In this document: positions 15,448-19,217 of the stretch, in pieces | How positions within the stretch are numbered: position 1 is the stretch's first letter | How the letters are laid out: each line of letters opens with the position of its first letter | NCBI GenBank assembly: GCA_011389735.1 | Contig: JAABTS010000023.1 | Location: forward strand, 1 to 48,967 | Origin: Desulfobacteraceae bacterium | GTDB lineage: Bacteria; Desulfobacterota; Desulfobacteria; Desulfobacterales; JAABTS01 | Reading direction: 5' to 3' | Length of the DNA stretch: 48,967 nt | Translations under genes and position numbers: made by a program | The notes under the pieces: generated by a model | Databases searched by the model: none | The model's input: only the letters and a program-made list of their open reading frames with translations | Told to the model about the DNA's origin: nothing

Positions 15448-18400
15448 TTACGCGCCTTTTGATTTTGATTGATCTTCCACGATGTATTCTCCTATCTTTT
15501 CCGCTGATTTTCCGAATAAATCGTCTATTGTAACAAATTCGATAAAACGATCATTCCAGGCGACCGAATTTTCCTGCACAATGTTTTTGATATGTTCGTA
15601 TTTCCCGCCGAGCGCCTTGATTTTTTCCTGTAAGGAGGCTTCTTTGTTCAGGTCGATATTCAAAAGGAGCAGGTGTTCGATAATATTCGGAGTGTCGGCG
15701 TTCGTGGAAATGATCGGAATAATCAGAATACTCCGTTCGTCCCGCCTGCCTTTTCCTATATATACATTTCCCTGACGAACGATGATTCGTTTCGTCCCCT
15801 TGAGCTGGTTGTCCTGTTCGACGCGGGAAGGAATCGACGCCAATGTTCCGGTTTTTTTCAGGATATGAATGCGTGTCTCATCCGTGGCGTCGCCTAGCAA
15901 ATTGAGTCCGGAAATCTGATACAAAATGCTGCCGTTGATACTTGAAATGATTTTCTGAAGATTTCGGATGACAATCACATTGTTGGTCGTTAATTGCGAT
16001 TCCGATATATCGTGTTCGTGCAAGGCGTCGAACAGAACGCCCTCGAATTTTTCGGCGATCCGGCTGGTTCCCACGGTCACTGTTTTTGCCTGATGCTTGA
16101 TGGCGTCCACGGGTCTTGACATGCGGTTGACGATTTCGCTCACCGTTTCGAGAAGTTTGTTCAGCATGTTCGTGGCCGTACCCTTGATTCCGAAATCAAG
16201 TTCAAAATCGGCCACGGGCAATCGCCCCGAAAGGTATTTTAACAAAAGCGTCAAATCCGCCACAAGAGCAACGGATGAAGAAAACCGGTCCCGGCCGAAT
16301 TTCTTCTTGAATTCATTGTAAAACGCCACCATTTTTTCCCGGAAAGTCTTTTCCAGTACCAGTTCATATATGTCCATACCGTTTTCGGTGTATTCGGATA
16401 CGGCGTTGCGCACTTCCTCCCGGAAATCGTACATGAATTTGGACCCTTCGTTTATGGCGAGGGCGGCGTAGTATCCCCAGATATGGCCCACCAGGGTGTT
16501 GAGGATCGGCGCCAGATGTTCGCTGACCACGGGCACGTGGAATATACTTTCGGCGTAAGGCGCAAATCGGTATTCTCCTTCATTGGCGATTACGACGGGC
16601 GTGGCGTTATGAGCGTGAAAAATCGCAGTATCCTTGACTATATCCCCGATCACCGTATCTCGCGTTCCGGCCGCGCAAACGATAATCAGCGGCTCGGACG
16701 ACAGGTCGATATGCTTTTTATCCTCCACGTAATCAGATGATATGGTTTTGTAGCAGAGTTCGCTCAATTTAATCCGGATTTCGTCTGCGGACGCCTTGTT
16801 GGGACCGCTCCCCACCGCCGCCCAGTATAATTTCGACGGTGAAAGACCCGCGGCCGACGCCTCAATGTCCGGTTTCAGAGTCAGGATTTTCCGCATGTAG
16901 CCGGGAATTCGCAGAAGGGTTTGCAATTCCCCGGTAACAAAAAGATTATCCCGTTTTCCGGTCAATTGGGCCAGATATAGCCCTAGCAAGGCTCCAGCCA
17001 CGATCTGTGAATAAAAGGCTTTCGTGGAGGCCACGGACATTTCCACATCACGCCCGCTGCTCGTGTAAAGAACGCCGTCGGTTTTGAATGTGATATCCGA
17101 ATCCCTACGGTTGACGATTGAAATCGTATAGGCTCCCAGCTCTTTAACCATGTCGATGCTTCGATTCGTATCCGTGGTTGTGCCGGACTGGGAAATAGCC
17201 ACGACAAGCGTGTCGCTCATTTTCGGGGATTCCAGATCTTCGATCAAGTTGAATCCGGACAGCTCGGACGCTTTGTAAGCCGTAATCAGGAGATTTGGAT
17301 CTCTCATATAATAGGTCATGATATTGGCGCACGCCAGCGCGGCCACACCGGCGGTACCCTGGCCGATAAACAGAATCTTGCGAATTTTGTTTTCGGAAAA
17401 AGCCTTCTCGATGGATTCCGGAACGATGGATTCGTCCAGCATTACCTGATATCGGCCTTCCTTGATTTTCCATCGGTTTTGAAGCGTTTTTTCAACGGAA
17501 GCCGGGGATTCTGATATTTCCTTGAGAAAATAATGCGGAAAATGCTGGCGGTCGATATCTCTAGACGTTATTCGGGTGCGCTTGATATCTTCGACTCCAA
17601 AAGTCAAGGGAGTCCCGTCATAATACATGGCTTTGACACCGTTCAATCCTCCTCGGGAATTTTGATCCAAAATTACGATCTGCCCGGATGTCAATCCGTT
17701 TTTTCCATTGAACTGCTTTTCTCCGTCCAGCTTCAGGTATTCATCCGTGTCTTCCACAAACCCGTACACTTCGGACGCAGGCATATAATGATCCTTCGCC
17801 ATGCCCACAAAAATTGCCTGTCCGCCGCCTTTCTGAGCCAGAAACACTTTTCCCGGTTCAAGGTCGGTGCTCATGGATATGGCGTGCGAACCTTCAAAGC
17901 TGTTCACCGCCAGCCGAAACGATTCGGTCACATCATGGCCCTGCTTCAAATAATACTCGATTTTCAAGGGAATTATTTTGGTGTCCGTCGTTATCTCGCC
18001 AGAAATTTTAAAACCTTCTTTTTCAAGATTTTCCCGGATCGACACATAATTATCGATATCGCCGTTCAAGCAGACATAGATCATTCCTTTTGGCCATACC
18101 GGGAGGGCTTCGAGAGCGTCCGACGGATTGAACAAATCGCCGGCCGCATTGTCCACAGGGTGGCAGTTGGGTTCCGTGATGGCGCCGATCGACGCCCATC
18201 GGGTATGAGAAGACACGATATTGGAAATATTGGGAAAAGCGACGAGGGTTTGGAATATGGGATCTTCGTTGATTTGATTGCGGATAAAGGCGACATTGTC
18301 GCCCAGGCTTCCAATTCCGGCGGCGACCTTATAAGCAATAGATACGGAAACCGTTCCGTTTTCAATCTCTCTGATTCCAATACAGCCGTTTAACAGAACG

Positions 18401-19200
18401 TCCTTGCCGGTCCTGCTTCGCAATGCGTCCAGATGGTTTTCGCGGCTCAACGTCAAAAGAAATTGCTGAAATTCGTCCCGGCCAAGGAGAACGAGTAGTG
18501 ATATTCCGGCGGAATCCCGGCCTCTGACCTCAAGCCGGTCTATACTGTTCAGCACTGAATTGATTTTTTTGAACAGGATCAGATTCGGTTCCGGAAAACT
18601 CGTCGGCGCTATCCCGTTCATAAGATTTAGAATTTTATGAATATTGGCTTCTATCTCCGTATTGAGACACCATGCGGCGTCTTTGAGATTTTCGATAGAC
18701 GCCGCGATTTGTTCGGCCGGCCCCACTTCGATATTTCCGATATGCTTATTGACAAAGGCCGTTCGATTGTCGGCGATACGGGCGATACGATCCGCCAAAG
18801 CAGGAATTTCATCCCTTAACGACTGATTTTCCAGAATTCGAATGAACCAATGGTCCCGCTTGAGTGAGCGGACTCCCGTCAATAACTCACCGGTTCCGTT
18901 TATGAACTCCATGTCCTGGGTTGTCTGAAGAATTGACAAGTCGTTTGACGGCTGCGCCTCTTCGATGTCGGACACCATCTTTTTCAAAGCGTCGATCTCG
19001 ATGTATTCTTCACGAGAATCCGAAGGCTTAAAGGTTATGACACAGGCCATGCCGCAATAAAAAGAGATCGGCCGGTAGGGGAATAAGATAATCGACCGGC
19101 ATGGTGCGTGTGAAGGATGCTTTCCAATATATAGATTATAACGAAAACACGACTTGAAAATATGCAGCAGCTTTTTCCAGCGCCAGGGAGTGTGCGGCAT
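15448..19200 (-). CDS. Giant GlmS-like SIS-domain protein
   Basis: The 1250 aa are about twice the length of glucosamine-6-phosphate synthase (about 610), which makes GlcN-6-P from fructose-6-P and glutamine. GlmS-like motifs appear in order: RLEVRGRDSAG (222-232), HTRWASIG (near 331), a first SIS domain with AISQSGTTTDTN (near 667) and VASTKAF (near 721), and a second SIS domain ending near 935. About 150 residues are inserted before RGRDSAG and about 300 follow the second SIS domain. The start at 19200 has an excellent AAAGGAG site, which leaves a 48-residue leader before C49-G50-M-A-C-V-I, the stretch resembling the GlmS N-terminal CGIVG. The alternative start M51 has no ribosome binding site. 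The C-terminal catalytic Lys segment of GlmS is not recognisable. Amidotransferase activity is uncertain. Confidence 0.8.
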   Translation of the reverse strand: MPHTPWRWKKLLHIFKSCFRYNLYIGKHPSHAPCRSIILFPYRPISFYCGMACVITFKPSDSREEYIEIDALKKMVSDIEEAQPSNDLSILQTTQDMEFINGTGELLTGVRSLKRDHWFIRILENQSLRDEIPALADRIARIADNRTAFVNKHIGNIEVGPAEQIAASIENLKDAAWCLNTEIEANIHKILNLMNGIAPTSFPEPNLILFKKINSVLNSIDRLEVRGRDSAGISLLVLLGRDEFQQFLLTLSRENHLDALRSRTGKDVLLNGCIGIREIENGTVSVSIAYKVAAGIGSLGDNVAFIRNQINEDPIFQTLVAFPNISNIVSSHTRWASIGAITEPNCHPVDNAAGDLFNPSDALEALPVWPKGMIYVCLNGDIDNYVSIRENLEKEGFKISGEITTDTKIIPLKIEYYLKQGHDVTESFRLAVNSFEGSHAISMSTDLEPGKVFLAQKGGGQAIFVGMAKDHYMPASEVYGFVEDTDEYLKLDGEKQFNGKNGLTSGQIVILDQNSRGGLNGVKAMYYDGTPLTFGVEDIKRTRITSRDIDRQHFPHYFLKEISESPASVEKTLQNRWKIKEGRYQVMLDESIVPESIEKAFSENKIRKILFIGQGTAGVAALACANIMTYYMRDPNLLITAYKASELSGFNLIEDLESPKMSDTLVVAISQSGTTTDTNRSIDMVKELGAYTISIVNRRDSDITFKTDGVLYTSSGRDVEMSVASTKAFYSQIVAGALLGLYLAQLTGKRDNLFVTGELQTLLRIPGYMRKILTLKPDIEASAAGLSPSKLYWAAVGSGPNKASADEIRIKLSELCYKTISSDYVEDKKHIDLSSEPLIIVCAAGTRDTVIGDIVKDTAIFHAHNATPVVIANEGEYRFAPYAESIFHVPVVSEHLAPILNTLVGHIWGYYAALAINEGSKFMYDFREEVRNAVSEYTENGMDIYELVLEKTFREKMVAFYNEFKKKFGRDRFSSSVALVADLTLLLKYLSGRLPVADFELDFGIKGTATNMLNKLLETVSEIVNRMSRPVDAIKHQAKTVTVGTSRIAEKFEGVLFDALHEHDISESQLTTNNVIVIRNLQKIISSINGSILYQISGLNLLGDATDETRIHILKKTGTLASIPSRVEQDNQLKGTKRIIVRQGNVYIGKGRRDERSILIIPIISTNADTPNIIEHLLLLNIDLNKEASLQEKIKALGGKYEHIKNIVQENSVAWNDRFIEFVTIDDLFGKSAEKIGEYIVEDQSKSKGA

Positions 19201-19217
19201 TTAATTCTCCTTTACGT

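Follow-up and report, generated by a model that had tools for sequence, protein, structure and literature searches.

GlmS is usually viewed as an enzyme that begins Met-Cys-Gly and whose only maturation step is removal of the initiator methionine. How, then, should a GlmS-like protein be understood in which 48 residues precede the catalytic cysteine? The question is raised by an open reading frame on the minus strand (positions 15,448 to 19,200) of contig JAABTS010000023.1 from Desulfobacteraceae bacterium, a stretch of 48,967 nucleotides that is called the window throughout this report. The frame encodes a conserved, expanded GlmS relative of 1250 amino acids. A first-pass annotation had placed this GlmS-like frame correctly, leaving its strand unstated, and had proposed either that a propeptide is removed or that the protein has lost glutaminase activity and acts on another sugar phosphate. 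The reading that we favor, with a probability of roughly 0.77 and on the basis of sequence comparisons, is that this is a functional GlmS, particular to its lineage, which is synthesized as a precursor and then loses its leader, probably by autocatalysis, so that Cys49 is freed. The features on which the argument turns are these:

15448..19200, minus strand: whole gene, expanded GlmS of 1250 amino acids (reading frame plus Pfam and NCBIfam matches)
19207..19212, minus strand: AAGGAG ribosome-binding site, six bases 5′ of the ATG (sequence, 6-base match)
19057..19200, minus strand: leader, residues 1-48, putative propeptide (homolog comparison)
19078..19134, minus strand: conserved core of the leader (residues 23-41, LYIGKHPSHAPCRSIILFP), without gaps relative to Cys49, with Pro41 at position -8 (67 of 67 leadered rows)
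19054..19056, minus strand: Cys49, equivalent of GlmS Cys1 (invariant in 74 of 74 aligned rows)

Conservation of the leader and of the catalytic cysteine

The ATG that opens the frame is the sole ATG, GTG or TTG in frame ahead of Cys49 in the window. A stop codon lies immediately 5′ of it, and the next methionine is residue 51, past the cysteine. Thus, barring an unusual start codon, Cys49 can become N-terminal only through processing. Together with the AAGGAG motif, these facts uphold the earlier count of 48 residues between a good start and the segment CGMACVI, where a canonical GlmS has its cysteine directly after the initiator methionine. The enrichment of ribosome-site matches, 69% versus 11%, is biased upward because such a match partly guided the choice of start codons. 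An RNA element over the start was also considered and was rejected, given that scanning the window against Rfam at gathering scores returned no matches.

The first-pass annotation had suggested asking homologs whether Cys49 is invariant and where they begin. Relatives were collected by a scan of genome contigs, from which the best 80 of 163 were fetched, and the titles include Desulfobacteria, Thermodesulfobacteriota, genomes of unclassified (delta-)proteobacteria and Olavius worm symbionts. Five of these loci (L042, L058, L061, L073 and L086) meet a contig end before the cysteine site. The other 75 all carry the cysteine, located by motif search, as does the window; 68 of them show the leader motif ahead of it, and the remaining seven start Met-Cys-Gly. 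Homologs that begin at the Met51 position and lack the cysteine, which had been named as the case against a propeptide, are absent from all 75.

An alignment of 73 of these loci with the window gives 74 rows, 67 of which have the leader; L024 and L070, in which the leader motif is present but the contig ends before a start is reached, were excluded. Fifteen positions are invariant in every row, namely the equivalents (E. coli GlmS numbering) of Cys1, Arg26, Arg73, Trp74, Asn98, Gly99 and Asp123 together with those of Gln348, Ser349, Thr352, Ser401, Lys485, Glu488, His504 and Lys603. This set holds the catalytic cysteine and the arginine, Asn-Gly and aspartate of an amidotransferase glutamine site, as well as the four residues Lys485, Glu488, His504 and Lys603 found in the SIS isomerase part of a canonical GlmS. 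The Ser347 position is Ser in 66 rows and Thr in eight, and the Arg599 position is Lys in 68 and Arg in six. The residue numbers and roles for E. coli GlmS are those that we take to be standard. Some of them are matched in a published account (PMC7000685).

The leader opens with a variable stretch, continues with about 19 conserved residues of which the last two are FP, and closes with seven more; from position -26 to the cysteine it aligns without any gap. Among the leadered rows, proline occupies position -8 in all 67, position -9 is Phe in 58 and Leu in nine, position -23 is Gly in 57, and position -25 is Tyr in 50. Mean pairwise identity is 12% over positions -45 to -28 and 37% over -27 to -1, compared to 59% for the whole protein. 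Over -27 to -1, the pairwise differences at the three codon positions are 0.485, 0.374 and 0.665, and the shifted frames hold 36 and 30 stops; over -45 to -28, the differences are flat (0.713, 0.651 and 0.728). The codon-position pattern at -27 to -1 is that of a constrained protein, and the leader is a conserved protein-coding element, not a misannotated start. Its relation to known proteins was sought in two ways: a comparison of 25 of the 67 leaders with PDB sequences gave no match at E <= 5, and a Pfam search returned no family, with two single-member matches only (E 0.13 and 0.37).

The distribution of the leader bears on its age. In a quick tree built from the protein bodies alone, with the leader removed, the seven leaderless rows group as a single clade (Shimodaira-Hasegawa-like approximate likelihood ratio test, SH-aLRT, 99), equivalent to one change, and midpoint rooting nests this clade among leadered rows. 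Rooting with canonical GlmS recovers the long family as a single clade (support 100), separate from the canonical enzymes; a long-branch warning attaches in this tree to L138, which is the canonical enzyme of genome G330. The base of the long family in this tree is an unresolved split into three branches: four leaderless members of family f62, about 1140 amino acids long; 12 rows, of which 11 are leadered and one (G170) is leaderless; and 23 rows including the window, of which 19 are leadered and four are leaderless. Eighteen hand-picked distant members from 18 genomes include 13 with the leader and five without it. In the 48 other long-form genomes, the match starts within the leader in 42, whereas in six (G151, G170, G379, G095, G309 and G291) it starts behind the leader. 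The tree positions, and the spread of the leader across members, indicate that the leader goes far back in the family and has been lost on two or more occasions; the f62 group may have lost it or may never have had it.

Distribution relative to canonical GlmS across genomes

If the long protein supplies the GlmS activity of its host, a canonical enzyme might be expected to be missing. The genome of the window, which is 97% complete, contains no protein over the curated GlmS cut-off, which answers a further check put forward in the first-pass annotation. It does have glmM over cut-off; bifunctional GlmU stays under cut-off, with partial model matches on several contigs. Across the phylum, GlmS is over cut-off in 319 of 394 genomes, and the 75 that remain (394 - 319) were read from best E-values weaker than 1e-130. 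The long form is present in 49 of these 75 (the window's own genome and 48 of the 74 others) and in none of the 64 tested genomes with canonical GlmS (59 + 5). Among the genomes tested, the long form therefore seems to stand in for canonical GlmS in part of the phylum.

An exchange between the two forms can be traced in G330 (loci L142 and L144). Its congeners G068 and G347 have the long gene intact. At the same site, G330 is missing about 3.5 kb between flanks that are 87-94% identical to those of the congeners, and what is left is a stub with the leader and the first few residues past the cysteine, whose frame ends 25 residues from the cysteine. The canonical glmS of G330 is carried on roughly 3.7 kb of sequence at a place where the congeners have only about 70-80 bases between matching flanks, and parts of this sequence outside glmS match elsewhere in genomes of the genus. 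The long gene is cut to a stub and glmS lies on an inserted stretch, which is most simply read as canonical GlmS having replaced the long form in its role.

Proposed maturation and alternative readings

We propose that the enzyme is the glucosamine-6-phosphate (GlcN6P) synthase of the organism, and that it would convert glutamine and fructose-6-phosphate into glucosamine-6-phosphate, the start of uridine diphosphate N-acetylglucosamine (UDP-GlcNAc), peptidoglycan and lipid A. Translation would yield a precursor, and the conserved leader would be cut off ahead of Cys49, most likely by Cys49 itself, as in propeptide-bearing PurF. The cut would free the alpha-amino group needed for glutaminase activity, and ammonia would then pass to the isomerase site. 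Because the leader holds a fixed register up to the cysteine, and because leaderless relatives begin Met-Cys-Gly, both forms would arrive at the same mature N-terminus. These facts, with the invariance of Cys49, favor the propeptide option of the first-pass annotation. A review of this enzyme class (PMC9140057) likewise describes an N-terminal cysteine preceded by a few residues that are autocatalytically cleaved.

Several points weigh against this reading. Both the cleavage and its autocatalytic nature are steps that we infer. The residue at -1 varies across rows, so that no obvious protease site is apparent, yet such variability is neutral for self-cleavage. The structural model of the leader is of moderate confidence, and its predicted local distance difference test (pLDDT) score falls below 50 at residues 46-49. 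The protein scores 215.9 bits with TIGR01135 (curated cut-off 418.05) and 238.5 bits with NF001484 (381), although the E-values of these NCBIfam GlmS models are strong despite the low scores. At the substrate site, the Ser303 position is Ala and the Thr76 position is Ser in all 74 rows; the His77 position is Val in 67, Ile in four, Met in two and Phe in one, and is never His. Finally, 26 of the 75 genomes without GlmS over cut-off, such as G174, also lack the long form, so that the pathway can be absent or missed. Some of these 26 are more than 95% complete, and in at least two (G177 and G182) the canonical GlmS is in two pieces and the genes may only be broken or split.

One possibility is that the leader is never removed and serves as a folded N-terminal segment, with a structural or targeting role, while the glutaminase is inactive or is replaced by free ammonia. 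Conservation of the core of about 19 residues would fit such a role, as would the prediction of a helix and two strands for the leader, whose N-terminal part in the window looks amphipathic and basic. However, the invariance of the glutaminase residues is difficult to reconcile with this possibility, and loss of glutaminase activity was rejected as unlikely on that ground. Moreover, leaderless relatives start at the same cysteine, which argues that they do not need a leader to fold. We therefore regard a retained leader as unlikely.

A slightly poorer candidate is that the enzyme uses a different sugar phosphate, or makes a different amino sugar, in place of GlcN6P. The scores under the curated cut-offs and the Ser303-to-Ala change could be taken in this sense, and in many loci the genes upstream are of lipopolysaccharide-sugar type (KdsB, Fe-ADH and DegT-type; see below). 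Against this stand the mutual exclusion with canonical GlmS in the tested genomes, the replacement by the canonical enzyme in G330, and the retention of the isomerase catalytic residues Lys485, Glu488, His504 and Lys603. The second option of the first-pass annotation, in which lost glutaminase activity was paired with another sugar phosphate, thus fares badly on both of its parts.

That the start is misassigned or the assembly wrong, and that the true protein begins directly before Cys49, is scarcely credible and was rejected: leaderless relatives do exist, and in 16 of the 67 leadered rows at least one start codon falls among the five codons that precede the cysteine, but the codon at -1 is a start codon in none of the 67, the window has no ATG, GTG or TTG between -48 and Cys49, and the leader is conserved as protein.

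Domain architecture, gene neighborhood and known relatives

The precursor that we propose differs from canonical GlmS in more than its leader. The remaining features are as follows:

18586..19023, minus strand: insertion in the glutaminase domain, for the most part helical, about residues 60-205 (comparison plus AlphaFold2 model)
18505..18525, minus strand: RGRDSAG, residues 226-232, GlmS Arg26 region (sequence, alignment)
18184..18207, minus strand: HTRWASIG, residues 332-339, GlmS Arg73/Trp74 (sequence, alignment)
18049..18066, minus strand: NGDIDN, residues 379-384, GlmS Asn98/Gly99 (sequence, alignment)
16447..17556, minus strand: isomerase domain, two SIS subdomains, residues 549-918 (Pfam, sequence and structure matches)
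16117..16446, minus strand: helical insertion that separates the isomerase from the catalytic tail, residues 919-1028 (comparison plus model)
16072..16116, minus strand: GlmS catalytic tail AKTVTV, residues 1029-1043, with Lys1039 equivalent to Lys603, internal here (alignment)
15451..16071, minus strand: C-terminal domain, residues 1044-1250, without a Pfam family; weak GAF/PAS-like fold at about 1086-1184

The glutaminase motifs and the two SIS domains named in the first-pass annotation are thus located, and Pfam supports them with SIS at 54.9 bits (cut-off 25), GATase_6 at 28.3 (27) and GATase_7 at 25.4 (25), the last two marking a class II (N-terminal nucleophile, Ntn) glutamine amidotransferase. 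Matches to PHROGs were to families of unknown function only. An insertion of about 150 residues in the glutaminase part had been noted, and it is present: Cys49 and Arg226 are 177 residues apart versus 25 in E. coli GlmS (+152). A further 61 residues are added between Arg226 and Arg334 (108 versus 47), placing about 60 extra before HTRWASIG. The roughly 300 additional residues assigned earlier to the end of the protein are right in amount but not in place, since about 110 are inserted ahead of the catalytic tail (HQAKTVTVG, resembling RNLAKSVTVE) and about 205 follow it. The tail, AK[TS][VI][TS][VI], is kept in 39 of 39 long rows examined and is followed there by about 205 residues. As a separate observation, residue 53 of the window protein (19042-19044), four past the catalytic cysteine, is also Cys; leadered rows have Gly (62/67) or Ala (4/67) there.

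By sequence, the closest solved structures are GlmS and GFAT, and the AlphaFold2 model of residues 1-1200 (mean pLDDT 81.4) is in agreement. It aligns with human GFAT1 (6r4j_B) over 574 residues (Z 32.9, root-mean-square deviation [rmsd] 4.8 Å) and with E. coli GlmS (1jxa_A) over 561 (Z 32.5, rmsd 5.2 Å), and, in keeping with a class II glutamine amidotransferase, with 1xff_B over 230 (Z 27.1, rmsd 1.7).

The C-terminal domain is predicted to fold with high confidence (pLDDT 91.5). A Pfam search with 36 rows gave no family and only five single-member matches (E 0.016 or weaker), and Foldseek gave no match at E <= 0.001. In the VIA comparison, the best match is the GAF domain 3ci6_A (Z 7.8, 83 aligned, rmsd 3.5 Å), a score within the range of chance arrangements, and the best 50 rows are mostly GAF, PAS or LOV domains; a GAF/PAS-like fold is suggestive only. 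The domain of about 205 residues may be regulatory and control the enzyme, in which case it would probably modulate activity. According to PMC7000685, feedback inhibition by UDP-GlcNAc is the main difference between eukaryotic and prokaryotic GFAT. We can speculate, tentatively and with more doubt than confidence, that these proteins are a lineage-wide zymogen GlmS, in which the leader would hold the glutaminase off until self-cleavage and the sensor-like domain past the catalytic tail would provide eukaryote-type feedback control, a kind not described for prokaryotic GFAT.

The same genome encodes a second relative of 1807 amino acids (contig C396:814-6234, minus strand, L100) that starts MCGIIAYFG and has parts resembling a glutaminase and SIS domains (Pfam SIS at 23.6 bits, just under the cut-off of 25). 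A RAKSVTIS tail in this protein is followed by about 750 residues, parts of which weakly match the C-terminal domain of the window protein (hmmsearch 8.9e-10). Among 60 genomes searched, a protein of this type was found in its own genome only; the weak, partial match in G086 fell on the canonical GlmS of that genome.

In the window, the genes upstream are, in order, a penicillin-binding transpeptidase, metG and a PSP1 gene. For 73 loci, we recorded the nearest same-strand upstream frame of at least 130 amino acids that ends within 600 bases. This neighbor is of iron alcohol dehydrogenase (Fe-ADH) type in 26 loci, a transpeptidase in 14, KdsB in 13, MetG in four (named by likeness to the gene in the window) and a DegT-type aminotransferase in three; two other clustered genes occur once each, eight neighbors are unclustered, one locus has none and two are cut off. 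For the Fe-ADH, transpeptidase, KdsB and DegT clusters, one member apiece was scanned, and KdsB alone passed a curated cut-off. The neighborhood is thus one of envelope sugars and the cell wall. Directly upstream of the long gene, many loci have kdsB or genes of Fe-ADH and DegT type, for example L041:2169-4467 and L039:3-791. These resemble an 8-amino-Kdo set (KdnA/KdnB); the scan shows DegT-type and Fe-ADH-type families only.

Compared to canonical GlmS and GFAT (TIGR01135; 1jxa, human GFAT1 6r4e), the long form shares the domain order, the fold, the main catalytic residues and the tail AK[ST]VTV. It differs in its length (1250 amino acids versus 609), its leader before the cysteine, its insertions (about 60-205 and 919-1028) and its residues past the tail (about 205), and it falls under the curated cut-off and in a separate clade of the tree. 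In function the long form would be a GlmS; the curated model places it outside canonical TIGR01135, as a sister clade. PurF of the B. subtilis type (glutamine phosphoribosylpyrophosphate amidotransferase, GPRATase) is likewise a class II amidotransferase with a peptide encoded ahead of its catalytic cysteine. However, that propeptide has about 10 residues, compared to about 48 with their own conserved motif in the long GlmS, and PurF has a phosphoribosyltransferase domain where the long GlmS has SIS; no phosphoribosyltransferase family is among the Pfam matches of the long GlmS at E <= 1. The PurF of the same genome (contig C2, L101) has 10 residues ahead of CGVFG, a short propeptide of the known kind. 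The large subunit of glutamate synthase, GltB, has a longer propeptide before its amidotransferase cysteine, and its synthase part is unrelated to GlmS. Among the literature matches listed, no paper was on a GlmS propeptide or a long GlmS, as judged by title or abstract start.

A conserved leader ahead of the cysteine is thus found across a bacterial lineage, on an enzyme twice the usual size. It offers an opportunity to test for propeptide maturation in the amino-sugar pathway, together with a possible added control domain. Because the long form scores under the curated GlmS cut-offs, automatic annotation could call these bacteria GlmS-less. Instead, many sulfate-reducing bacteria and their relatives seem to rely on a double-size enzyme for the first amino sugar of the cell wall.

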